64,000 bases of DNA, from NCBI GenBank assembly GCA_000961595.1, contig LADO01000005.1, positions 1 through 64,000 of the forward strand. The letters are read 5' to 3'. Positions 37,569-53,962 of the stretch are shown one piece after another. The position numbers and the translations under genes were made by a program. Source of the DNA: Peptococcaceae bacterium BRH_c4b (GTDB lineage Bacteria > Bacillota > Desulfotomaculia > Desulfotomaculales > Desulfocucumaceae). Position 1 is the stretch's first letter. Each line of letters starts with the position of its first letter. Below the pieces are notes generated by a model. It was not told where the DNA came from. It saw nothing but the letters and a program-made list of their open reading frames with translations, and searched no databases.

Positions 37569-37643
37569 GCTGGAGTGGCTCAGGGGTAGAGCAGCGCACT
37601 CGTAATGCGCAGGTCGTGGGTTCAAATCCCATCTCCAGCTCCA
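37569..37643 (+). tRNA. tRNA-Thr (anticodon CGT)
   Basis: The cloverleaf is complete. Acceptor GCTGGAG/CTCCAGC, D arm GCTC...GAGC, anticodon stem GCGCA/TGCGC with loop CTCGTAA (anticodon CGT at the centre), T arm GTGGG-TTCAAAT-CCCAT, discriminator T and an encoded CCA. It reads ACG threonine codons. The accessory region starts just downstream, but no repeat of its 3' end was seen that would mark an attachment site. Confidence 0.97.
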
Positions 37644-38398: not shown

Positions 38399-38559
38399 AT
38401 CGTGTCTTTTGCCAGTAGTGCCTTGGTATCCATGGACTACGGCATTTCCGATCTAATAGGCTCCGAGCTTTTGAGCTCTCATTAGAATTGCAAAAAGGTA
38501 AATTCCAATTTTCTGTAGAATTTTGCAAGTATTCGGTAATAAATAAAGAGTTGATTAAC

Positions 38560-40008
38560 ATGACTGGAATAAATGAAAACTTTGACATTTTTTTTGAGCG
38601 GGACCAGGTCAGGGTCAGGGATGCTTTAAAAGATTTAATCATGCTGTCCGGTGTCTTAAAAGACCTGTCCGGAGAGATATTTTGGGATGATCCCCGCCGG
38701 GTTCTGGATGCTTTAAGAGTGTTTGACCTGATATTAAAAGGCACCTTTTATGAAGAAGAGGCTATCCAGGGGGAACAGGAGCTGGTTTACCGGTTTGAAC
38801 GTATCTATGAATTACAGCCTACCATAGACATACCCCGGCTGGTTCGTTTGGGTAGAAGATATAATTGGATTACCGACTCTCATAATCCTCCTCTGAAGTT
38901 CACCGGCACGGGCAAAAGGATGGTAATGCAACTTCTTCGCCTGGTTAATGACGCTTTGGTTTACCACAGTCAGCCAGCGGAGTTGAAGGAGATTCATCAG
39001 GCGGAAAGGGACCTGCAACTGGCAAAGTCATATGAAGATATTGGTGTTGGTAGTCAGGATACCATCGCCAGCGTATTAAACAATTTGGATAACGCAGTCA
39101 ATGATCTTAAGTTTCAGCGTGAGAAATATATACAGGACCGTCGGGCGTTGGAGAAATACCAGTCTGTGCTGGCACTTCTGGAGATGTTGGAACGGGAATT
39201 GGGTGAGCGTTTTGCCCGGCTGAAGGGCGCTATAGATCAGAAATATGAAAGACAGCACCGCCGGAGCGCAACTTTGTTTTACCGGGTGATTCAAGAATTA
39301 AGCTCACTTCTGGGTGAAAACGCTTACGTGTCCCAATTGGAAGTGGGAAGAAAGGTCCTGCGAGTTAACCGCGACAGGTTTTTGCAGTACCTTGTGGATG
39401 CTTATAGCGACTCCCTGCCGGGTACCACCTTGAAACCTGTTCAGACCATGCAATACATGGAAGAAGGGATATATGACGATGGCGGGGACTCCTTTGCCGG
39501 CCTCTGGATGCCATTTACTTTACCTCCACGGTTGCATGAGGATGATGTGGAACGCGGGGTTCGGCAGTTAGAAGACTGGATTTACCGGTGGGAACCTCCC
39601 CGGGAAAATAGCATGTCAGAAAACATAGAATATCATCCTGCCCGTGCGGTCACCGCCAGGGAACTGGCATCTTTGCTGGGCGCTGCCACCTCTGTTGCGG
39701 CCGAGTTGGAAACAGACACCAGGCCTATTATTGATGCGATTGCCGGGAACCCGGGCATTTCGGTAGCCAAGCTTTTGGCTCAACTGGGCGGAGGATGGGC
39801 CGGTGCGCTGCGCCACCTACTGGTGCTGAGCTACCTGGTTAGCGAAGAAGAAGTGAAACTATTTACCTATAAAAACGGTAAAGACAAGGCAACAGCAGAT
39901 GTGAAAACCGACGGATGGCGGCTTAATTATCCGGATGGTGAGGTTCGCTTTGTCAAAGGTACGGCGGTCTTGGGTAAACAGAAAAAATATGATTTGAAGG
40001 TACGATGA
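38560..40008 (+). CDS. jetA: Wadjet-type JetA (kleisin-like, MksF/MukF analogue)
   Basis: About 482 aa, mostly helical. Winged-helix-like N-terminal region (FFERDQVRVRDALKDLIMLSGVLKDL), a central coil (DTIASVLNNLDNAVNDLKFQREKYIQDRRALEKYQSVLALLEMLERELGERF) and a C-terminal winged-helix-like part. It is assigned from position ahead of JetB and an SMC-like JetC, with which it would form the condensin-like ring that detects and extrudes plasmid or phage circular DNA. The ATG at 38560 is the best start, though the ribosome site is weak. Its stop overlaps jetB by ATGA. Confidence 0.75.
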   Translation: MTGINENFDIFFERDQVRVRDALKDLIMLSGVLKDLSGEIFWDDPRRVLDALRVFDLILKGTFYEEEAIQGEQELVYRFERIYELQPTIDIPRLVRLGRRYNWITDSHNPPLKFTGTGKRMVMQLLRLVNDALVYHSQPAELKEIHQAERDLQLAKSYEDIGVGSQDTIASVLNNLDNAVNDLKFQREKYIQDRRALEKYQSVLALLEMLERELGERFARLKGAIDQKYERQHRRSATLFYRVIQELSSLLGENAYVSQLEVGRKVLRVNRDRFLQYLVDAYSDSLPGTTLKPVQTMQYMEEGIYDDGGDSFAGLWMPFTLPPRLHEDDVERGVRQLEDWIYRWEPPRENSMSENIEYHPARAVTARELASLLGAATSVAAELETDTRPIIDAIAGNPGISVAKLLAQLGGGWAGALRHLLVLSYLVSEEEVKLFTYKNGKDKATADVKTDGWRLNYPDGEVRFVKGTAVLGKQKKYDLKVR

Positions 40009-40691
40009 TTATGGAAAAGTATACAGCTATTGATGAAAAGGATATCCTGATGTTAGATAAAAGGCAGCAGCAGGCCCTTTCCGAGATATTGATATCCAGC
40101 AAAAGTATGGATGGTGTTCCCAGGCAGCGGGTAATGAGAGTGCTGCGTACCAGGGATGAAGAGGTATTTAATCTTTTTCTGCGGAAGGCAAACAGTATCC
40201 TGGGTGACGCCTTGAAGTTAGTATATGATGAGCAAAGCAACCGGTGCGTAGCCCTTACCCGTGCCAATGCTGCCTGGACCCAGGAAGTGCTGGACGATCA
40301 TCAACTGGCGCTTTTTATCTTCTGTTTTTACCTTGGCATGACTTCACGTACCGGCAGGATGACCTTTGACGAGCTGCATGGTTATTTCCAGCGATCCTCT
40401 CTTTATGCTGAGCGCAAGCTGATGCATGCCCTGGACCATCTGGCGAAATGCGGCTTACTAAGGATGGAGGAGTATGAGGGAGAAGGGGATGAGAAGAAAA
40501 GGTCCTATTATATTACCCAGGTGGGCCGCCAGGCCCTGCCCCTCCCTTTTTTAATGCGAATCGTCAGCGAGTCTCAGGGGGGCGAGGTAACGATGGAGCA
40601 GGTCAGGGATTTCTTCAGCCTTGACAGGCGGCAGGAAGACACCGGGAATACGGATGAAGATAAAAAGCAGCTAAAGCTGTTTGCTGACTAG
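40005..40691 (+). CDS. jetB: Wadjet-type JetB (DUF4194-like, MksE/MukE analogue)
   Basis: A 228-aa protein, the kite-type winged-helix subunit. It has LDKRQQQALSEILISSKSMDGVPRQRVMRVLRTR, FYLGMTSRTGRMTFDELHGYFQRSSLYAERKLMHALDHLAKCGLLRMEE, and an acidic Gln-rich end. It bridges kleisin and SMC heads in this system. Coupled by ATGA to jetA and 12 bases ahead of jetC (GAAGAGGTG). Confidence 0.82.
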   Translation: MIMEKYTAIDEKDILMLDKRQQQALSEILISSKSMDGVPRQRVMRVLRTRDEEVFNLFLRKANSILGDALKLVYDEQSNRCVALTRANAAWTQEVLDDHQLALFIFCFYLGMTSRTGRMTFDELHGYFQRSSLYAERKLMHALDHLAKCGLLRMEEYEGEGDEKKRSYYITQVGRQALPLPFLMRIVSESQGGEVTMEQVRDFFSLDRRQEDTGNTDEDKKQLKLFAD

Positions 40692-40703
40692 AAGAGGTGT
40701 GTT

Positions 40704-43700
40704 ATGTATCCAATTAGGTTGCAAATTGCCGGGATACGTGATTTTTCTCCTCAAGCAATGGATCTGGATAAGGTCGTTGCCCACGTTTTAGTTGGGGGGA
40801 AAAATGGCTCGGGTAAATCCACTCTAGTCTATGCCATTGCCTTTGCCCTTGGCAGCCCCAGGATATCGGTGGATGGCCTTCGCTCTAAGACTAGCCGCCG
40901 GGGGGAGGACGGGTGGTATGCCCGGGTCTCAGTGCTTTTTCACAACCCGCCAGGAGAAAATCGCAAAGATGCCCCGGAGTACGTTGAGCTGCATGCAGAG
41001 GTGCGGGTTGCACCCGGTACCGAGCGCCGCCAGCTGAATTATTCCCTTTACGGGGGTGAGGTGCCGGACAAGCTTTCCTTACTGCGCAAGTTTCAATCCA
41101 GAAATGATGCCAGGGAATACTACCGGCGGGTATTTGGCATTGATGCTGAGGGATATTTCATGTTCTGGTACCAGGGCTCCATCGCCGAGTTCGCCAATAT
41201 AAGCGACGCTGCCAGGTTTCAGCGGGTAGCGGAGATGTTTGGCCTGGACGAATTGCAGAGGGAGTGGGAGCTTGCCAGGATAAAGATGAATGATGCCAGG
41301 GATGATTTTGAAAGAGCCAGAACCCTGGCGCTAAACCGCCGTCGCCGCTTGCAGGAGCTCGAAAAGTTTAAAAACGCGCTGGAGCAGAGAGATTTCCTGC
41401 GGCGGGATGCCCTGCTGCTTTATGATGCCTGCCACAGGGGACTGCTGGAGCTATTGCGCGGCGAGCAAGGTGAATTATTAAGCCGGCTGGATAAATACCA
41501 GAAGGAGCATCAGCAGAACCTGCGGGCCAGAGACGATGCCCATAAAGCATTGCGTGACGTTACTATAAAACTTTCTGAGAACAGTGATAAAAGAAACATA
41601 AAACAGAGTGAATTTGCATCAGAAAACCAGCACATTATCCAATTAAATGAGAAAATACGAGTTTGTAGTACGGAGAAAGAAGAGCTTTCTAAAAAGGTGC
41701 GGGACCTGGAATCTAAAATGTACCATATCAGGCGCAGCAAGGAAGATCTCTTGGCGGAGCAGGGAGCTCTTCGGCGTGAGCTCGAAATCTTAGAGGAGAG
41801 AATCCGGCAACTAAGCGGGGAGATTGATGACTTGACCGGCCGCAGGGATGCTATCAACGTGGAAATCGGTAAAGCCGGGAGCGAGCTGGAACGTGTAAAA
41901 GAAAATATCCAGCAGCTGGAGGCCGACCAGTCTGCTTTGCCTTCCCTGGAAATATTACGAGAACAGTATGATAAGTTGAAAAATACAAGGGATAGTGACG
42001 CCGGGCAAAAAGCTTTGCTGGAGGAACGCTGCCGAAGCCTGGAAGCTGATTATGTTCGATTGGCTGGCCAAAAGACCCTGCTTTTGGCGGAACAAGAAAA
42101 GTTGCTTAAGCTGTACCGGCAGGCTGGCATTAAAGCCTATGCTTTTGGGGAGATCTTCGAGGTTCGCGGGGAAATTTCGCGGGAGGAAATAGAGCACCTA
42201 TTGGCACCGCTAAAACACACCCTTTTTGTAGAGCAATCACTGGGACGGGTGCCGGTGGAAAAAGCATTTTACGTGGTAGACCTGTCAAGACCGCATACCG
42301 GGGAACCTCCCAGGGAAAACATATTACAGGAATACCTTATCCCTACGGAAGGGGTTTGTCCGGAAGAATTTTTAGAAAAGGTGAATTGCTGGCTTGCCTT
42401 TATCCAGCTGAATCCAGAAAATAACCCTCCCGGCCATTGCGGCAGCGGGCTGGTATTGTGGCAGGGAAACTTGTGGGACTGCTATGGCCTGCGGGGAGCA
42501 GTGGAACGGGGCGCTGCTATCGGCGTTAAGGCGATAGAAATAGCCCGGCGGGAGTTGGAGGAAAAAATAAGCCAGGCCGGACTGGATATAGAAAATTTAG
42601 ACGGTCATATAAAGGAAATGGATGAGAAAATCAAAGATTTATCTAAAAAAATAAACCGTAGGCAAAATGCTGATGAAAGCTTACCTGGCTTAAGTATACA
42701 AAAGCAATTGCTTGGTACCAAACTGGAACAAATGGGAAAAGAACTGGCTGCTGCAACAGAAACATTGGCTAAAACTGTGGAGGAAAGGAATGCCAACAAT
42801 AATAACAAGGTTAATAAAGAGCAACTGTTGAAGCAGGTCGAGGGTGAGTTAACTGTTTACGCCGAATATGAGCGGGAAGAAAAAAATATAATCCGCATCC
42901 GGGAGTTGTCCGAAGCCCTGGAGAAGGCCGAAGGAGAACTGATAGCCTGTCGTCAGCGGAGTGATGCCCTGGAAGGCGAAGTTGATTCTTTAGAGCGTGT
43001 GGTAAGAGAGTTGTCCCGGGAAGAGGATGCCAGGCAAGGTGAATACGATAAGCTGCATTCCCTGGTGGAGCGGCAGGAACAGGATCTGGCCGGACTGAAT
43101 GAGCAAGCTAGCACCCTTTCTATAGAAATCGAGGAAGTAGAGGTAGAACAGGCTCGTTTGATCAAGGAATTTGCAGAAGTAATTACAAACCTCGAAAATA
43201 CAAGCCAGTGGTTGCCCTTTGAATTTAAGCCCCAGGAAAAAAACCGCTATAACTTTCAGCGCAAAAAGGAAGAAGCCCGCGGGATGCTGGATGATGCGCG
43301 TTCCCGGGTGGTTAATGAGAATGCCCTGGAGGAATACAACGATTTTTCCTACGAGTATAATCTGGCGGTGAAGGAATTGGAAGAATGCGAACTCCGGTAC
43401 AACAACCTGTGCAGCTTGGAAGAGGAGCGCCGGCAAAATTTTGACAAGTCGGTATATAACCGTTGGCTTGGGACTAACAGGCGGTTTTCTGATTACATGA
43501 GACGTCTGGGAATGGTGGGAGAGGTGCGCTCCATCTCACCTGACCCTGAAAGCCGCCATGCCAGCTATCAGTGGGAGCTGCACGTGGCTACCAGGGCGGG
43601 GCACCGGCCGGAAAGGATCGTGCCGGAAAGCGGCCGTACTGTAGGAGAGGGTATTTCAGGAGGGGAAAGGGCGGCCACCTCCCTGGTCTTCGCTCTGGCC

Positions 43701-43985
43701 CTGTTGAGTGATATTGAGAGAAAGCCGCCTTTTTATGTGCTGGATGAATTTGACAGCGCTCTGGATGAGGAGCGAAAGCATGATATTTTCGACTTGTACC
43801 GTTCAGTGTTGGATCGGAAAATGATAATAGTCTCTCCTAAAATTCACGGAGATCAGTACCTGAACAGATTTAATAAGTTTCTCTGTGTGGTGGCCAACCC
43901 TGGTGCCGGATCCAACCAAACAGTCAGTGAGGTCTACGATGTTACCAGGGAGGAATACGTAGAGATTAGGGGCGAAGATGAATAA
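40704..43985 (+). CDS. jetC: Wadjet-type JetC, SMC-like ATPase (MksB/MukB analogue)
   Basis: A 1093-aa protein. Walker A GGKNGSGKST (~31-40) at the N-terminus; two long coiled coils around a hinge (~430-600); and the signature and Walker B at the C-terminus (ISGGERAATSLVFALAL, FYVLDEFDSALDEER). This is the ATP-driven loop-extruding motor of the system. Base composition is like that of the host. Its last 20 bases overlap the 3' end of the opposite-strand jetD. Confidence 0.93.
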   Translation: MYPIRLQIAGIRDFSPQAMDLDKVVAHVLVGGKNGSGKSTLVYAIAFALGSPRISVDGLRSKTSRRGEDGWYARVSVLFHNPPGENRKDAPEYVELHAEVRVAPGTERRQLNYSLYGGEVPDKLSLLRKFQSRNDAREYYRRVFGIDAEGYFMFWYQGSIAEFANISDAARFQRVAEMFGLDELQREWELARIKMNDARDDFERARTLALNRRRRLQELEKFKNALEQRDFLRRDALLLYDACHRGLLELLRGEQGELLSRLDKYQKEHQQNLRARDDAHKALRDVTIKLSENSDKRNIKQSEFASENQHIIQLNEKIRVCSTEKEELSKKVRDLESKMYHIRRSKEDLLAEQGALRRELEILEERIRQLSGEIDDLTGRRDAINVEIGKAGSELERVKENIQQLEADQSALPSLEILREQYDKLKNTRDSDAGQKALLEERCRSLEADYVRLAGQKTLLLAEQEKLLKLYRQAGIKAYAFGEIFEVRGEISREEIEHLLAPLKHTLFVEQSLGRVPVEKAFYVVDLSRPHTGEPPRENILQEYLIPTEGVCPEEFLEKVNCWLAFIQLNPENNPPGHCGSGLVLWQGNLWDCYGLRGAVERGAAIGVKAIEIARRELEEKISQAGLDIENLDGHIKEMDEKIKDLSKKINRRQNADESLPGLSIQKQLLGTKLEQMGKELAAATETLAKTVEERNANNNNKVNKEQLLKQVEGELTVYAEYEREEKNIIRIRELSEALEKAEGELIACRQRSDALEGEVDSLERVVRELSREEDARQGEYDKLHSLVERQEQDLAGLNEQASTLSIEIEEVEVEQARLIKEFAEVITNLENTSQWLPFEFKPQEKNRYNFQRKKEEARGMLDDARSRVVNENALEEYNDFSYEYNLAVKELEECELRYNNLCSLEEERRQNFDKSVYNRWLGTNRRFSDYMRRLGMVGEVRSISPDPESRHASYQWELHVATRAGHRPERIVPESGRTVGEGISGGERAATSLVFALALLSDIERKPPFYVLDEFDSALDEERKHDIFDLYRSVLDRKMIIVSPKIHGDQYLNRFNKFLCVVANPGAGSNQTVSEVYDVTREEYVEIRGEDE

Positions 43986-45417
43986 TGTTGAAAATCTGGT
44001 CCCATTTTTCGGGGCCGCCCAGTAATTCCTCCTGTTCACGGTCACGCAAATCCTGCTCTTCCTGTATACGGCACAGCCATTCATGATATGGTAACACCAT
44101 TGCTGTCTCAAGTTGGGTTGACACAAAAAGGCAATGAGGCAAAATTTCATGGACTTGCCGGGCAATATCAATCCCGGACGGGTCAGTATCCACCCAGGAA
44201 AAAAACGCTTTCCCCGGCCCGGTGGCTGCCAGCATTTTAAGCAGGCGTCTGTGGGCCAGTCGAACGCGCCCGTCAATGCCGATAATGAGCGATTCCGACT
44301 GCCGCCGCTGCCAGCCGGTAGCTTCCATTTTTAAAAGCAGGGCCCTGTTTTCGGTGAGAATAATTCTCCCGGCTCTGGTGATTGCTTCCTCTGTCCTGTT
44401 TACCTGGATATTGCTGAGGGCGCAGATGGTATCATCAGGATAAACTTCTTTTATATCGCCCCTGGCCAGCCGAAGGTCTCCCAGTATATACAGGGGATAT
44501 AGGCTGCCGAGGGAGGTTAAGCCCAGGCTGTCCAAGGGGACTCCGCAAACGGTCTCTGCCATTTGTATAAGCTCGCCCCTGGCCTGATCGAAGTATTTTG
44601 AGCCGCCGATAGAAGGGTTAAAACGCGCACCAATTTCCTTCCATTCATAGCCTTCCGGCATTTCAAGCAGACATTCGGCCAGGGCCAGCAGAAAATCCAC
44701 TCCCAGGTGGTATTTGGAGGATGTTCTGGTAGGAGATAAGGGCCAGGGATAATCCGTATGGAAGATAGTCTTTTTATCTTGTCCAATCACACTTAACTCC
44801 TCTAATTTTGCCTGAATGTGTTCCGCTATTCTCCTTAGAGCAGCATTTACAACACTCTTTTGAAAAAGTTCGCCGGTGTTAAGTGTATCTCCGGCGGGTT
44901 GGTTGTTCTCTATTAGTAATAATATCCGTTGTAGTCTCTGCTCTCTTTCCGTAATCCACTGGAAATGATTTTTCAAAAGTAGTTGTTGTTGTTCTCCAAG
45001 GTGTTGAATTAGAGGGGGCATAGGGCCATATGCGACGGAATGGATTGTTTTTTCATCTGAATTTAATCTAATCCAGCGCCCCAGGTAGCCTGAATTTATC
45101 AACTCAGACACTATGTTATCCGTGGCCATGCCCAGGATGATGGCTTCTTTGGATAAAAGAGACAATAGGCGCTCTTCTGATAGACGCTCTGCTTTTCTAC
45201 ACTCCTTGCTGATTATACCAAGGATATTTTCAGGAATGTTTTCCTCAGCAGGGCTTTCTGACCAGTTGTATTCAAGATAGCCAACCAGGCGCCTGGTCCT
45301 GGTGGTATCCCGGTAGACATTCCACCTTGTCCGTCTACCATTGATAGATTTGCTTGGGCTGGGCGACCAGTTTGATAAAACTTTTACCCAGGATGGAAAT
45401 TTGTCCACTGTAGTCAC
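43966..45417 (-). CDS. jetD: Wadjet-type JetD, Toprim-like nuclease subunit
   Basis: A 483-aa protein with the JetD plan: an N-terminal DNA-binding/dimer part, then a Toprim core with the acidic Glu in LTENRALLLKME (~350) and the DxD motif in FSWVDTDPSGIDIARQV (~412). JetD cuts the circular DNA extruded by JetABC. In the described operons jetD follows jetC in the same direction; here it is encoded convergently and must have its own promoter. It starts at ATG 45417. Confidence 0.85.
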   Translation of the reverse strand: MTTVDKFPSWVKVLSNWSPSPSKSINGRRTRWNVYRDTTRTRRLVGYLEYNWSESPAEENIPENILGIISKECRKAERLSEERLLSLLSKEAIILGMATDNIVSELINSGYLGRWIRLNSDEKTIHSVAYGPMPPLIQHLGEQQQLLLKNHFQWITEREQRLQRILLLIENNQPAGDTLNTGELFQKSVVNAALRRIAEHIQAKLEELSVIGQDKKTIFHTDYPWPLSPTRTSSKYHLGVDFLLALAECLLEMPEGYEWKEIGARFNPSIGGSKYFDQARGELIQMAETVCGVPLDSLGLTSLGSLYPLYILGDLRLARGDIKEVYPDDTICALSNIQVNRTEEAITRAGRIILTENRALLLKMEATGWQRRQSESLIIGIDGRVRLAHRRLLKMLAATGPGKAFFSWVDTDPSGIDIARQVHEILPHCLFVSTQLETAMVLPYHEWLCRIQEEQDLRDREQEELLGGPEKWDQIFNIIHLRP

Positions 45418-45582
45418 CTATTTCAAATATATATATCCGATGGATACGGGATTTCAAATGATGCTCCGGAAAGGGATATAGGCTTCTTTTGATACGCTCA
45501 ATTTCTCCTTGGATGTCGGCCCGGGTGATGTTCTGATTGCGGGCATAGCCGTTATTCTTCTTAAAAATATAACCACTTTTGG
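45335..45582 (-). pseudogene. Open frame without start codon upstream of jetD
   Basis: From 45582 leftward an uninterrupted frame reads GYIFKKNNGYARNQNITRAD, IERIKRSLYPFPEHHLKSRIHRIYIFEIGDYSG and ends in IYQW at 45335, overlapping jetD's start in another frame. It looks like real protein but has no ATG, GTG or TTG start. It may be the 3' end of a lost gene. Confidence 0.35.
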
Positions 45583-45674
45583 TTATAAATGAAAGATAAT
45601 TTTTAAAACTTGTTGCCCTTAGAACGCATGTTTGATAAGATTAAAAAAACAAATGTTTTGAGGGGGAAGGTTAA

Positions 45675-45941
45675 ATGTCCATAATTGAGCAAATCCAGTC
45701 GACCGCTGATAGCGCCATCCAGGAGCTTGAAGCAGAGATAACTGATTTAGAGGAAGAAATTGAAATACATAAGCTTCGTATCCAGGGCGCCCGGGTTCAG
45801 ATCCAGGCACTGAAAAGGTTCCTGAACCCGGAAGAGGGTATCCACGAGATGGTAAAGCCGGCTAAAGGGGCTAAGAAAAACGGCAAAGCGCATGGTGAGG
45901 GGCTTGAGCTTCAGGAGCGTCATTATGCATCGATTTCTTGA
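45675..45941 (+). CDS. Small coiled-coil protein, copy 1 of a duplicated gene
   Basis: An 88-aa protein. The N-terminal two thirds is a coiled coil (IIEQIQSTADSAIQELEAEITDLEEEIEIHKLRIQGARVQIQALKRFL); the tail is Lys-rich (KPAKGAKKNGKAHGE). It is about 85% identical to 53690-53932, including ~50 bases of leader and the GAGGGGGAAGG ribosome site. It overlaps the helicase start by 17 bases. The two copies bound an accessory block. No family is recognised; an immunity, partner or scaffold role is possible but unsupported. Confidence 0.7.
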   Translation: MSIIEQIQSTADSAIQELEAEITDLEEEIEIHKLRIQGARVQIQALKRFLNPEEGIHEMVKPAKGAKKNGKAHGEGLELQERHYASIS

Positions 45942-48224
45942 TTCTGCCGGTATAAAGTCTGTCAGGGTGATTGAGCCCAAGAAAGGCGAATTCAGCCCCT
46001 TTTCTCCGGGGATATCCCCATTAATAATAAATGGCTTAAAGAAAGCAGGTATAGCCAGTCTTTATAAACATCAGGCCGAAGCCATCAAAAGCGTACTGGC
46101 AGGCAACCATATAGTAATTACCACAAATACCGCCAGTGGTAAGTCAATGACATATACGATACCTGTACTTAACGCTTATTTGGATAACCCCGAAGTAAAG
46201 GCTCTTTATTTAACTCCCGCAAAAGCACTGGGACAAAACCAGAAGAAAACTATAAAAGATACTTGCGACATAGTATCGTGGCCAGGTGCACGGCCTGGCA
46301 TAGAAGTATGCGATGGTGACACTGATTTCAATGTGCGCAAGGAAATTTTAAGTAACAATAATTTTGTGGTGACAACACCTGATATGCTTCATGCCAGCCT
46401 TTTGCCAAAGCACTTTCAGTACAAAATTTTTTTTCAGCATTTAAGCTTTGTAATAATCGATGAAGCCCATACGTACCGTGGTATTTTTGGCAACAATGTC
46501 TGCCATGTTATCCGGCGCCTGCTTCGTATTTGCAGGTACTACGGATCTTCACCTGTTTTCATTCTTTGCACCGCCACCATCGCCAACCCCGAAGAATTTG
46601 CTAAAAACCTGGTGGGATTGCAGTTTATAGTTGTCGATAAAGATACCTCGCCCTCGGGGCCGAAGAAGGTAGTATTCTATGAGCCGCCCCAGTATCACAA
46701 AGATGGTGAATTATTAAGAAGATTAACCCACTATGAGGCGGCCAGGGCTTTGGGCAATTATATTGAAAAGGGCCACAGGGTCATCGTTTTTGGCAGATCC
46801 CGCAAAGTGGTGGAAAGCGCTTATAAAAAACTCATCAAGGATTTTCCAGACCTTAAAAGAAAAGTCACCCCCTACAAAGGCTCATTAGTTCCCGAGGTGA
46901 GAAGGAGTCTGGAAAATGATCTTTTCAGGGGAGTTTTAAAAGGGTAATTACTACCAATGCACTGGAGTTAGGAATTGACATAGGTGATTTGGATGTCTGC
47001 ATACTTTCTGGTTTTCCGGGGTCTATATCTTCTACCTGGCAGCAGGCGGGGCGCGCCGGCCGAAATGGTCAGGAGGCCCTTATAGTATTAATGGCCAGCG
47101 AAGACCCCCTTGATCTTTTCCTTGTCCGAAATAGTGCGTATTTCTTCGGACAGTCCTGCGAGAAGGCCATTGTAGCTCCTGATAAAGTCCAATTTCTAGT
47201 GGACCATATCCTCTGTGCGTCACGGGAGCTGCCGCTGACCAGGGAGGACAGCCAATACTGGCCTGAAACACAATATTATAACGTTGTCAAATATCTGCAC
47301 GGCCAGGGTAGCCTGGAACTGGTATCTGATAACCCCAAAAAGTATAGCAACAAGGGTGTGATAGAAAAATTCGGTCTGCGCGGAGACAGTGACCAATACA
47401 GTGTTGTTACGCCCAGGCAAAAAATAGTTGAGCGATATGAATTTAAAGACCTGTTAACTGATGCCTACCCTGGGTCAATCTTAAACATAATGGGCTCTTC
47501 ATATATTGTGAAGGAAATAAAATTTGACAGTAAGGAGATTTTACTGTCTGACCTGCCGCCTAACCTGAATGGCAGCTATACATTGCCGGTTGTGAAATCG
47601 GGTATATCTAACCTTCGCGAGGAAAGTCAGCATAAAGCTGCAAAAATCCCCACTTTTTCTGGTGAGCTAACCGTAAACAACTCCCTTGAGGAATACATAA
47701 TGGTAAAGCCAGGTGGTAAAAAAACGCAATTTACTCTGACCCAGAAAATTGACCCATACAGGCTTACCACAATTGGAATGTGGCTGGATTTCCCTGAAGA
47801 CATTTATGGAGTCCTGCATGCCATAGAGCACCTTATACGTGTTGTTTTGCCATGGATGGTAATGTGCGAAAGAGGTGACCTGGGGAGTCTTATAGAGGGT
47901 AATAGAATTTATGTTTATGATAATCACACGGGTGGTATAGGACTGGTGGAATCGGCGCTGCCTATGGTTAATGAGTTGCTGCAAAGGTGCTACGAGGTGG
48001 TGATAAGCTGTAGGTGTGAAAATGGGTGCCCGTCATGTATTCACATACCCCAGTGCTCCACAAGAAACGAGAAGTTGGATAAAAGAGGGGCCTTAACGCT
48101 ATTGGCCGGTATCCTTGGACACAAAGCCGAAGCGGTTAATGCCGGTCCGCCAGTTGCTTTCAAGACCAGGACGGAGCTTAAACTGGCAGCGCGTCATATT
48201 GAAAAACAGTGGAATGACAAGTGA
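45925..48224 (+). pseudogene. DEAH-box helicase of the DUF1998/MrfA (YprA) type, frameshifted
   Basis: ATG 45925 after CAGGAG begins a superfamily 2 helicase: TNTASGKSMTYTIPVL (Walker A), YLTPAKALGQNQ, VVTTPDML, IIDEAH, CTATIANPEEF. At AAAAGGG (46938-46944) one base is missing: frame 1 stops at LKG, while the next frame reads VITTNALELGIDIGDLD...QAGRAGRNG (motifs V and VI). The C-terminus has the four-Cys site CRCENGCPSCIHIPQC of DUF1998. MrfA-type helicases act in DNA repair; here, inside a defence block, the role is unclear. The intact protein would be ~766 aa. Confidence 0.85.
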
Positions 48225-48501
48225 CAGGGCACAGAAGATAACCAAGTGGTAAATTCATCAATGGATGGCAGGGTGCCGGATGATGATTTGCCGGGGCAAA
48301 CTGGTGATTACCGTTGTATGGTTTCCTTACCGGCCCGGGCAGGGTCCTCCATGGCTTTTGGACTGGATCAAGAATTCACTCAAGTTTAACAGAATTCTTG
48401 GGCAAAGTGTTTTTTATGCTTAACCATTGTATTATATTTCATGATATCGATATAATGAGTGTAAAAGTTGATCAAACATGTTTGTGAGGGGAGGCGAATT
48501 C
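48225..48501. other. Intergenic region with candidate promoter
   Basis: The first 55 codons remain open in the helicase frame after its stop (QGTEDNQVVNSSMDGR... to FGLDQEFTQV), perhaps a lost C-terminal tail or another gene's end. TTGTAT (48427-48432), 18 bases and TATAAT (48451-48456) form a likely promoter for the AAA gene. Confidence 0.4.
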
Positions 48502-49485
48502 GTGAATGCTGTTCTTTTGAAACGATTATTCAGGTCTATTTCTGATGGACGTTCAGATGACCTGTACAAAATAGCCCGAAATATTATCGAAGATGAAATG
48601 AAAAAAGGGCACACTCAGCTGGCAAAAGAATTAAGCAATGTTCTAAAAACGTCTCCAATTAACAAAACGATAGCCACGTTTGAGATAAAACCTACGGAAT
48701 TAAATGTTTTGCCAAGAAGTAAGAGACACGAAACAACTCTTGTTACGCATGTACCGACGGACCGATTGGAACATCATATGGTTTTACCCAAGGCCGTGGA
48801 AGATCGTTTCCTTCGTATTGAAAGAGAATATGCGGCAAGGGAGCGTCTGGCACAATACGGGCTTTTGCCCCGCAGGAAAATACTGTTATACGGATCACCT
48901 GGCTGTGGAAAGACTATGGGAGCTGAACGCCTGGCCTTGAATACAGGGCTTACTTTTTTAAAGGTTCGTTTTGATGCGATAATTTCTTCTTATTTAGGTG
49001 AAACTGCAGTCAATCTCCGCTCCATATTTGATACTGCAGCAAAATCGCCTTGTCTATTGTTTTTTGACGAATGTGACTCTATTGCGAAATCTCGTTCGGC
49101 GATGCAAGAAGTTGGTGAAATTAAGAGGGTCGTGAATAGCTTTCTACAATTACTTGATGAATACGATGCTCCTGGTTTACTTGTGTGTGCGACAAATCTT
49201 AATAATCAACTCGATTATGCAATATGGAGAAGATTTGATGATGTAATAAAAATTCCAAAGCCTGGTCCTGATGAGCTTAGACAATTGATTGAAATGACCC
49301 TTTCAATTGCTAAGGTTTCCAAGCTGGACTGGGAAGTTTTACTGGATACGTCAAAAGGATACTCTGCTGCACAGATAGTCAGATCGGCTAGGGACGCCTT
49401 AAAAAAAGTTGTTTTAGAAGATAGTGGGAGAGTAACTCTGGAAGTTTTATTGGAAGCCATCAAGGAAAACCGAGGTGTTGAGTAG
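48502..49485 (+). CDS. ietA: AAA ATPase, IetA-like
   Basis: A 327-aa protein from GTG 48502 (AGGGGAGG ahead). Walker A GSPGCGKTMGAERLA, Walker B LLFFDECDSIA, sensor CATNLNNQLD and arginine-finger region WRRFDDVI mark a classical single-AAA ATPase, with an N-terminal helical adaptor. It stands immediately before a subtilase gene, the arrangement called IetAS, known from plasmid incompatibility in Agrobacterium and as an antiphage system (Gao et al. 2020). The ATPase looks intact. AT-richer than the operons to its left. Confidence 0.85.
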   Translation: MNAVLLKRLFRSISDGRSDDLYKIARNIIEDEMKKGHTQLAKELSNVLKTSPINKTIATFEIKPTELNVLPRSKRHETTLVTHVPTDRLEHHMVLPKAVEDRFLRIEREYAARERLAQYGLLPRRKILLYGSPGCGKTMGAERLALNTGLTFLKVRFDAIISSYLGETAVNLRSIFDTAAKSPCLLFFDECDSIAKSRSAMQEVGEIKRVVNSFLQLLDEYDAPGLLVCATNLNNQLDYAIWRRFDDVIKIPKPGPDELRQLIEMTLSIAKVSKLDWEVLLDTSKGYSAAQIVRSARDALKKVVLEDSGRVTLEVLLEAIKENRGVE

Positions 49486-50827
49486 TTGGCGCAATCAAAT
49501 CCATTTCCCCATATTCAATTAAAGCTGGTTACAGATGCACCTCAAAAAAAACGCAAGACCCCGCGAGAGCTAAACCCAAGGACCGCATATAATAAGGCGC
49601 AACGCGTTGATCATGCAGAAATATTAGGTGCGTCAATGACAACCCTGCGGGAAGAATGGCAGGAGGAAATAACTAGACGACAGCAGGAGGGACTACCGGA
49701 TATACCGGAAGCCATATCGATTTTTTTAAAAATTGATCCTTCTAGCTTACCGGTTGATGATTTGCGAAAATTCGGGATAGAGGTTATAGGTGAACTGGAA
49801 GACGGTTATATCATAGGGGCTTCTTCTGACGTTACTTTAAGTAGTTTAGCAGCTAAGATTAATGCTTTTGCAGCTGCAGGTCAGAATAATGTAGCAGCCC
49901 TTTGGGAAATTGCTACCGGTACAGCTTGGCGTTATGAGCGTATTCTATCCCCAGCTTTGCTAGCAGAATGGCCCCAAATACGTGATCAGGATCAATTTGT
50001 GATTGATGTTGGTGTAGCATGCCTTGGCATGACACATGTACCAGAACATCCGAACAAACGTCGGGATAAATATAAATCTGAAGAGAATTATTTGAAAGCA
50101 CTGGAAAAGTGGAATGATAAAAGGGATCAGGCTTACGATATATGGAGTGAACTGGCACTAGAAAGATACGATAAGTTGGCTGATTTTGTTAATAAGTACC
50201 AAGGGGAAATTCTGACTGGTATGATTGATGGTGACCATGATCCGTACAGCCAGTTACCGGATTGTTTTACCTGTAGAATTAACATTTCTGGTAAAGGGCT
50301 ACGCGATCTTCGGTACCTCTTTTTCAGCTCCGAAAGTTGCCCACATAGTTGCGCTCATTCAGAATACCTTTCCGAATGAAACTGCACTGCTGTATAGAGC
50401 CCTGTTAATTCAATCTGCAAGATGGCCATCATGGACAAATGCCATAGCAAATAAATCAGATATAATCCGTCATTTGGGCTATGGACTACCTGATGCAGAG
50501 CGTGCCACCCAAAATACGGAATATCGTATCACATTGATAACAAATGGTGAGGTCAGAATACGTGGCAGACAAGTACACATTTATGAGGTGAAAATACCGG
50601 AAGAGCTGCGGCGCCCGGGAGATGCATACGACATAAGGATTGATATTACATTATCTTACAATGCACAGCCCCGTCGAACCCGAAGATATAGGCAGCGGTA
50701 TCTTTCAACCTGGCTGGAATGGCAGACAAGTAAGTTAAATGAGCCGACTGAATTATTTGTTCAGCGAATGATTGATTTAGCAGGTACCAATAACAAAAAA
50801 GAGGGTGTTACTTTATGGACGACGTAA
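49486..50827 (+). pseudogene. ietS: Subtilisin-like protease, IetS-like, catalytic core deleted
   Basis: TTG 49486 touches the ATPase stop. The first ~275 residues are the N-terminal region of IetS-type proteases up to ...TCRINISGKGLRDL. The Ser-containing GTSFSAPKVAHIVALI comes immediately after, but in another frame (50225 frame). CTACGCGATCTT belongs to both sides of the join. The stretch with catalytic Asp and His is gone, so the protease is dead unless rescued. The C-terminal domain reads on to 50827. Confidence 0.78.
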
Positions 50828-51175: not shown

Positions 51176-51541
51176 ATGAAGGATAATACTATTAAACCAG
51201 GTGATATTCTTTTAATTGCCCTTCCGTCCCATAATCCGAAAGGGCATGAGCAAGAGGGAAGCAGACCGGCTATTGTGGTAGGTATACCAAAAGGCGCAAT
51301 TCGCTATCCTGTGGTTATTGTTGTTCCCTTGACAACTCAAAGTGGCTCCTGGGCGATAAAAAACCCAAATTTATATCATTATATACCGCAAGGTACGGCC
51401 GGGATTCCTCGGGATTCTATAGCTTTGATTGACCAGTTGCGGGCGGTTGATATCCAGCGTGTTCGGGCTTATTTAGGCAGCTTGGAAGAGGAATTGTTTA
51501 ATCCCATAAGAAATAGTTTGCTTCGAATTTTCAGGAAATAA
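51176..51541 (+). CDS. mazF: MazF/PemK-family toxin
   Basis: A 121-aa protein with the MazF fold signature: IKPGDILLIALP at the start, GSRPAIVVGIPKGAIRYPVVIVVPLTTQ, and SIALIDQLRAVDIQRVRAYLGSL. The family cleaves mRNA at short sites and is neutralised by the adjacent antitoxin. It looks intact and is the only complete toxin-antitoxin pair in the window. Confidence 0.85.
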   Translation: MKDNTIKPGDILLIALPSHNPKGHEQEGSRPAIVVGIPKGAIRYPVVIVVPLTTQSGSWAIKNPNLYHYIPQGTAGIPRDSIALIDQLRAVDIQRVRAYLGSLEEELFNPIRNSLLRIFRK

Positions 51542-51598
51542 ATTGATGAGTGGAAAGCCACCTAAAGGGGACTATTATATTCGTAAGCAATGAAAATA

Positions 51599-51634
51599 AG
51601 CTTGTAAATACAAGCCATCTTGTATTTACAAGCT
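51599..51634. repeat. Perfect 16-bp inverted repeat
   Basis: AGCTTGTAAATACAAG, CCAT, CTTGTATTTACAAGCT. A perfect 16-bp stem with a four-base loop, not followed by a T tract. It lies between mazF and the brxL fragment and might be a recombination scar, operator or unusual terminator. Confidence 0.7.
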
Positions 51635-51674
51635 GACCGGGTCAAGGCTTAGGTTTTTGCATGTCGGCTTTTAA

Positions 51675-52073
51675 CTTTTAGAGGTTTCACGAATAGTTGA
51701 TGTGTCTCTTGATACGGAATCGGTGCAAAACAATGATTACCTCATGCATATCCAGGACCTGCAGGGCATCGGGCTGACCTCGGAGCTGGCGCTGACTGCC
51801 TTTATCGCCCTTTGTTCCGGCGCCCTGAAAAGGGCGGTGCAGAGCCAACTGGCGGTACAGGGGTCCATGAGCATAGGTGGGACCATAAATAAAGTGGAAG
51901 AACTGGCCAATACACTGCAGGTATGCTTTGACGCAGGAGCCAAAAAGATCCTGCTGCCCATGGCCTCGGCTGTTGATATTCCCATTGTTCCTCCAGAGCT
52001 GTTTGCCAGATTCCAGATTGCCTTTTACCAGAGCCCCGAGGATGCTGTGTTTAAGGCGCTGGGGGTGGAGTGA
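51675..52073 (+). pseudogene. brxL: C-terminal fragment of a BREX BrxL Lon-like protein
   Basis: The frame is open from 51675 without a good start. It reads NNDYLMHIQDLQGIGLTSELALTAFIALCSGALKRAVQSQLAVQGSMSIGGTI, then VCFDAGAKKILLPMASAVDIPIVPPELFARFQIAFYQSPEDAVFKALGVE, matching the Lon-protease-like end of BrxL. The ATPase two thirds and the rest of BREX are absent. Confidence 0.8.
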
Positions 52074-52178
52074 AGAGTGTTATTTCAAGTAGATTTCCTT
52101 TCTGATTTGCCAGCCGGGGCAGGATCTCCCAGACTGAAGAATGAATACCCCGGAAAAGGAATGGGAGGAGCGAATATT

Positions 52179-52514
52179 TTGAGTGATAAATTTACATCGC
52201 TAGAGGAGCTGCGAAATCTTGTAGCCTCTTTTGTTGAGGCGCGCCAGTGGCAGAAATTCCACACTCCCAAAGACCTGGCTATGTCTGTTGCCATCGAGGC
52301 CGCGGAGCTGATGGAATTGTTCCAGTGGTCTGATGGAATGGATCTGGATGAAGAACATCTGGTCCGGGTACGGGAAGAGTTGGCCGATGTGGTAATATAT
52401 TGCCTTACGATGGCCAATACCCTAGATATAGATCTATCCCGGGCGGTGCGGGATAAAGTGGCCGTTAATGAACGTAAGTATCCGTTGGAAAGGTACAAAG
52501 GGAGATATAAATAG
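52179..52514 (+). CDS. MazG-like nucleotide pyrophosphohydrolase
   Basis: A 111-aa protein from TTG 52179 after GGGAGGAG. The MazG catalytic acidic set is visible in EAAELMELFQW and EELADVVIYCLTMAN. Short MazG-fold enzymes hydrolyse (d)NTPs or modified nucleotides as house-cleaning or in defence. The frame starts earlier but without a ribosome site. Confidence 0.88.
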   Translation: MSDKFTSLEELRNLVASFVEARQWQKFHTPKDLAMSVAIEAAELMELFQWSDGMDLDEEHLVRVREELADVVIYCLTMANTLDIDLSRAVRDKVAVNERKYPLERYKGRYK

Positions 52515-53689: not shown

Positions 53690-53932
53690 GTGTCTACAAT
53701 TGAGCAAATCCAGTCGACCGCTGAAAGCGCCATTCAGGAGCTTGAAACAGAGATAACTGATTTGGAGGAAAAAATTGAAATGCATAAGCTACGCATCCAA
53801 AGCGCCCGGGTCCAGATCCAGGCACTGAAAAGGTTCCTTAACCCGGAAGAGGGTATTCATGAGATGGCAAAGTCGGCTAAAGGAGCAAAGAAAAACGGCA
53901 AAGCGCATGGTGAGATGCCTGAGCTTCAGTGA
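53690..53932 (+). CDS. Small coiled-coil protein, copy 2 of a duplicated gene
   Basis: An 80-aa protein from GTG 53690 after CGAGGAGGAAAG, near-identical to 45675-45941 (TIEQIQSTAESAIQELETEITDLEEKIEMHKLRIQSARVQIQALKRFLNPEEGIHEM, then AKKNGKAHGE). The leader also matches (GTTTGATAA...ATCAAAAAAAACAAATG). It ends a few codons earlier than copy 1. It marks the right edge of the accessory block. Confidence 0.7.
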   Translation: MSTIEQIQSTAESAIQELETEITDLEEKIEMHKLRIQSARVQIQALKRFLNPEEGIHEMAKSAKGAKKNGKAHGEMPELQ

Positions 53933-53962
53933 AGGGGGATCTAATGATGGGCGAAAAATGAC

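Follow-up and report, generated by a model that had tools for sequence, protein, structure and literature searches.

The nuclease activity of a Wadjet system needs restraint, and in the usual picture the sensor and the nuclease are encoded on one message. The locus described here, in the 64,000-nucleotide stretch of DNA that we analysed (the window), is arranged in another way: jetA, jetB and jetC are encoded on the plus strand, jetD is encoded on the minus strand, and jetC and jetD share their last 20 bases, a layout noted in the original prediction and confirmed by the ORF coordinates and the sequence. This raises the question of whether the arrangement is a one-off oddity or the mark of a lineage, and whether opposed transcription of sensor and nuclease has a regulatory meaning.

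Gene content of the locus

The four genes required of a type III Wadjet are clustered in the window (Table 1), each at full length and without internal stops, and the top PADLOC model for every product is the type III version (JetA3, JetB3, JetC3 and JetD3), which bears out the predicted Wadjet identity. Judged from its genes, the locus is a complete type III Wadjet, a known anti-plasmid system, in a convergent layout variant. The jetA frame is opened by a TTG at 38488, the ATG at 38560 being the likelier start, and jetB overlaps jetA by 4 bp; JetA is 51-61% identical to the proteins of three convergent relatives. JetC has conserved Walker A (GGKNGSGKST), signature (SGGER) and Walker B (FYVLDEFD) motifs. 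A possible alternative start of jetD lies 9 bp inward (GTG at 45408, with AGGTGA ahead of it).

Table 1. Features of the Wadjet locus and its surroundings (window coordinates)
Feature	Position	Strand	Description
tRNA-Thr (CGT)	37569-37643		sole tRNA in the window, ~0.9 kb left of jetA
jetA	38560-40008 or 38488-40008	+	kleisin-like subunit; PADLOC JetA3 1.9e-56
jetB	40005-40691	+	KITE-like subunit; PADLOC JetB3 1.2e-24
jetC	40704-43985	+	SMC ATPase; PADLOC JetC3 2.9e-146; Pfam SMC_N 1.1e-17
jetC/jetD 3'-end overlap	43966-43985		20 bp, tail-to-tail; read directly in the sequence
jetD	43966-45417	-	Toprim nuclease, convergent with jetC; PADLOC JetD3 2.6e-61
abiEi relic	45477-45570	-	5' part of antitoxin gene, immediately before jetD and in its orientation
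Palindrome-like inverted repeat	45568-45587	-	TATAACCA-AAAG-TGGTTATA; precedes jetD, candidate AbiEi operator
Coiled-coil ORF, first copy	45675-45941		small ORF
MrfA/Hrq1-like helicase	45892-48224		DEAD + MZB; in two frames
IetA-like and IetS-like genes	48478-50827		AAA ATPase, then truncated subtilase in two frames
Island debris	51176-52514		MazF/PemK-like toxin, BrxL C-terminal remnant, MazG-like gene
Coiled-coil ORF, second copy	53690-53933		small ORF

The product of jetD groups with JetD, as had been proposed. After JetD3 the next best PADLOC model is JetD2 (5e-05), and the Pfam match to DUF2399 reaches 21.3 bits, under the 23.4 cut-off; identification as JetD therefore relies on PADLOC together with conserved residues and fold. 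An alignment of 14 JetD proteins has 17 invariant columns, all of which are present in the window protein; they include K260-E261, E356 (in LTENRA), D410 and D412 (in DTDPSG) and the C-terminal E461-Q462-E463 (EQE), and E356, D410 and D412 correspond to the Glu and Asp-x-Asp of a Toprim nuclease site. A structure model built from three sequences has moderate confidence (mean pLDDT 70.5, pTM 0.51). It matches topoisomerase VI-A (E 2.3e-06) and the solved JetD structure from P. aeruginosa, 7til (E 1.2e-03); the TM-scores of 0.22-0.41 are low, a probable effect of a multidomain protein and a shallow alignment. Sequence profiles of JetD and JetA gave no meaningful match against the PDB; the JetD match to known structures came from fold comparison.

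The locus adjoins a defence island with broken genes. The helicase gene changes frame near 46940, through either a frameshift or a sequencing error; the IetAS pair looks broken; and the BrxL remnant corresponds to residues 562-680 of 680. The two copies of the small coiled-coil ORF are closely similar, have similar upstream regions, lie about 8 kb apart and bracket the right half of the island, and could recombine. The island may have integrated at the tRNA-Thr gene.

Layouts and phylogeny of type III loci

We compared the layouts of 17 type III loci, the window included. Nine are codirectional in the order D-A-B-C (G376, G609, G685, G753, G669, G530 and G610, together with G421 and G424 of a long-JetC subtype), one is divergent (G416), and seven are convergent: the window, G462/L022 (a Desulfovirgula sp. 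MAG), L021 (a Clostridiales MAG), G407, G341, G535 and the decayed G631. PADLOC-model searches made independently of the window sequence, in a phylum sample, relatives and one further class, account for 15 of the other loci (nine D-A-B-C, five convergent with one of them decayed, and one divergent), and L021 is one extra convergent locus from a window-based search. The survey covers the window's phylum and a 246-genome sample around G794, in which a JetA3 search gave no match and the controls were equally silent. Within the window's order (113 genomes) the window is one of three convergent loci; two long-JetC loci there are codirectional and one locus is divergent.

With six further loci convergent, the window arrangement is not due to chance. 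Codirectional operons had been proposed as typical for Wadjet, and outside the convergent clade this holds for type III: nine of the ten non-convergent loci are D-A-B-C operons, in which jetD is the first gene. The inversion itself is not unique, since all close relatives share it, but it is the minority layout in type III overall. The seven convergent loci are not all whole, three of them being damaged or partial: L021 lies at a contig end, the jetD of G341 has a probable 5' frameshift, and G631 is decayed. A literature search, with most subscription papers outside its reach, found no paper describing a convergent jetD.

Several loci have peculiarities of their own. The first ~40 residues of the G341 JetD (L020:10900-11150) appear to be in another frame, which is the probable frameshift. 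G631 (L053:9291-11903) has a whole jetA, a jetC cut to 179 residues and a jetD of 252 residues. At the G416 locus (L016:9555-19901) jetD and jetA point away from each other, and jetB is separated from jetC by roughly 5.7 kb of other genes, among them an ABC-transporter-like block on the minus strand. The distant type III subtype (L014:2498-7189 and L015:2467-7164) has a JetC of ~1,565 residues, ~470 above the usual length. JetD-like matches in G343 and G033 were left out, as neither has a type III jetA or jetB in its neighbourhood; the one in G033 also resembles JetD1.

In maximum-likelihood trees of JetA, JetC and JetD a single branch sets apart all of the convergent loci, with ultrafast bootstrap/SH-aLRT supports of 91/92, 99/98 and 100/98, respectively; the codirectional loci with a short JetC make up the other group. 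Comparison of 221 ORFs flanking the convergent loci revealed no gene family common to different loci, which argues that the convergent four-gene block is an inherited unit. On the strength of these sequence comparisons, the convergent layout is no isolated oddity: it is a stable, inherited form of a known system, typical of its clade. The outlying long-JetC loci have the D-A-B-C layout, which suggests that the jetD-first order is ancestral and that jetD moved and inverted once, with the rooting uncertain because it depends on this distant outgroup and an unrooted tree; the four-gene block probably arose after that one event. No match was found with JetD alone as query in genome contigs and plasmids, with JetC in an alignment search of viral contigs, or with JetA in plasmids and phages, and there is thus no sign of the convergent lineage travelling on the sampled plasmids or phages.

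We therefore consider it likely that the window encodes a complete type III Wadjet, probably functional, from a separate lineage with the convergent layout, in which jetD moved once, the four genes have been inherited as a block, and jetABC and jetD are transcribed separately. A reading that can stand beside this one, and parts from it solely over the importance of the layout, is that the inversion was a neutral accident that became fixed a single time in an ancestor, that the system works just as the codirectional ones do and that the arrangement carries no regulatory meaning; we give this slightly less than an even chance. It would require a single inferred event, the G416 locus indicates that other jetD inversions are tolerated, and the neighbours upstream of jetD differ in each locus. 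However, the layout has persisted without a return to one operon even though the convergent relatives are only 46-55% identical to the window in JetC and 26-43% in JetD. This persistence says little in favour of a benefit, because re-inversion would also be improbable.

The region upstream of jetD and the jetC/jetD junction

A genome self-search showed that window positions 45477-45604 repeat part of contig C41 of the same genome, where the counterpart comprises the upstream region and the beginning of an intact abiEi gene, which has abiEii behind it; this C41 pair (L060:1946-3668) matches AbiEi_4 (2.1e-10) and AbiEii (4.1e-42). The relic in the window, about 95 bp and shortened by internal deletions, is 90% identical to C41 over 45510-45570 (C41:24170-24230) and 97% over 45477-45508 (C41:24262-24293). 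An AbiE type IV toxin-antitoxin requires an intact abiEi-abiEii pair, and at the window locus abiEii is absent and jetD follows instead. The inverted repeat next to the relic has perfect 8-bp arms, and with two mismatches allowed its pattern occurs twice in the genome, in the window and at C41:23945-23964 before the intact abiEi, and was not found in five related genomes; in the window the spacing between repeat and relic has been lost by deletion. The AbiEi of S. agalactiae binds inverted repeats in its promoter and represses its own operon (PMC7319586).

Given these similarities, jetD may be under a salvaged, AbiEi-controlled promoter. The fuller proposal, that jetD is expressed from a salvaged abiE promoter and that the C41 AbiEi binds the candidate inverted repeat and represses the Wadjet nuclease in trans, we regard as improbable; if true, it would link an anti-phage toxin-antitoxin to an anti-plasmid nuclease uncoupled from its sensor. 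In L021 an intact AbiEi-AbiEii pair also adjoins jetD, divergent from it, and the presence of AbiE genes beside jetD in two convergent loci may be coincidence within defence islands.

At their 3' ends, jetC and jetD abut in all six measurable convergent loci, with overlaps of 46 bp (G462), 41 bp (L021), 20 bp (window) and 4 bp (G535) and gaps of 1 bp (G407) and 8 bp (G341). The original prediction that the two mRNAs could pair through the 20-bp overlap is not favoured by this comparison: the overlap length is not conserved, two of the six loci have none, and the overlapped stretch is the variable tail of JetD. A selected 20-bp antisense switch is consequently unlikely, and the exact overlap is incidental to tight packing. 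Longer read-through antisense between the two transcripts is possible, because in four of the six loci (the window, L021, G407 and G341) we found no strong intrinsic terminator in the 500 nt beyond each 3' end, and transcripts there could overrun by hundreds of bases. The broader view, that the layout was selected because pairing of the convergent mRNAs restrains JetD or JetC expression, would draw on this and on the constant abutment of the ends; the variable overlap and the JetD tail count against it in turn, as does G535, where both strands carry T-run hairpins shortly after the stops that would keep any antisense short, and we doubt it strongly. Promoter and terminator scans gave results at chance level.

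It is very unlikely that jetD is an orphan or a gene in decay, caught beside the defence island and outside any working system, since in spite of its broken neighbours (the split MrfA-like helicase, the truncated IetS, the BrxL remnant and the abiEi relic) jetA to jetD have their full length and contain no internal stops, no defect of frame or active site was found in them, and JetD has all 17 invariant columns.

Mechanism and relation to known systems

In type I Wadjet, loop extrusion by JetABC on small circles activates JetD cleavage (PMC10586767), and by analogy we infer that this cutting mechanism holds for the type III lineage of the window. JetABC would act as the SMC-kleisin-KITE motor, extruding loops and recognising small DNA circles, and JetD, a Toprim nuclease, would be recruited to cut the trapped plasmid. 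Most type III systems would express D-A-B-C as a single message; in the convergent lineage jetD would have been shifted 3' and inverted, probably once, and the four genes would since have travelled as a block. As the strands are opposed, jetABC and jetD are presumably transcribed separately, in keeping with the earlier proposal that the nuclease is decoupled from the sensor. Each would then need its own promoter, and the layout suggests that two transcripts set the subunit ratio. A long-lived lineage with opposed transcription would mean that sensor and nuclease need not share one message, and it provides a natural comparison for how the dose of JetD is set.

Types II and III of Wadjet have barely been studied experimentally (PMC10586767), and the closest comparison is with codirectional type III loci such as G376 and G609. 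These have the same four subunits, similar protein lengths and the invariant JetD residues, but jetD is first in them, whereas in the window it is 3', on the opposite strand and convergent, and falls in a separate clade. The AbiE type IV toxin-antitoxin (PMC7319586) resembles the locus in its upstream region alone, where the relic and inverted repeat are like those before the intact C41 abiE; at the window abiEi is truncated, abiEii is absent and jetD is in its place, and the likeness of the 8-bp arms to the 23-bp S. agalactiae repeats is general in kind only. The type I systems JetABCD/MksBEFG of P. aeruginosa PA14, E. coli GF4-3 and C. glutamicum share the subunit plan and the nuclease fold (7til), but their sequence types differ from those of the window and they are described as four-gene operons (PMC10586767, PMC12287153).
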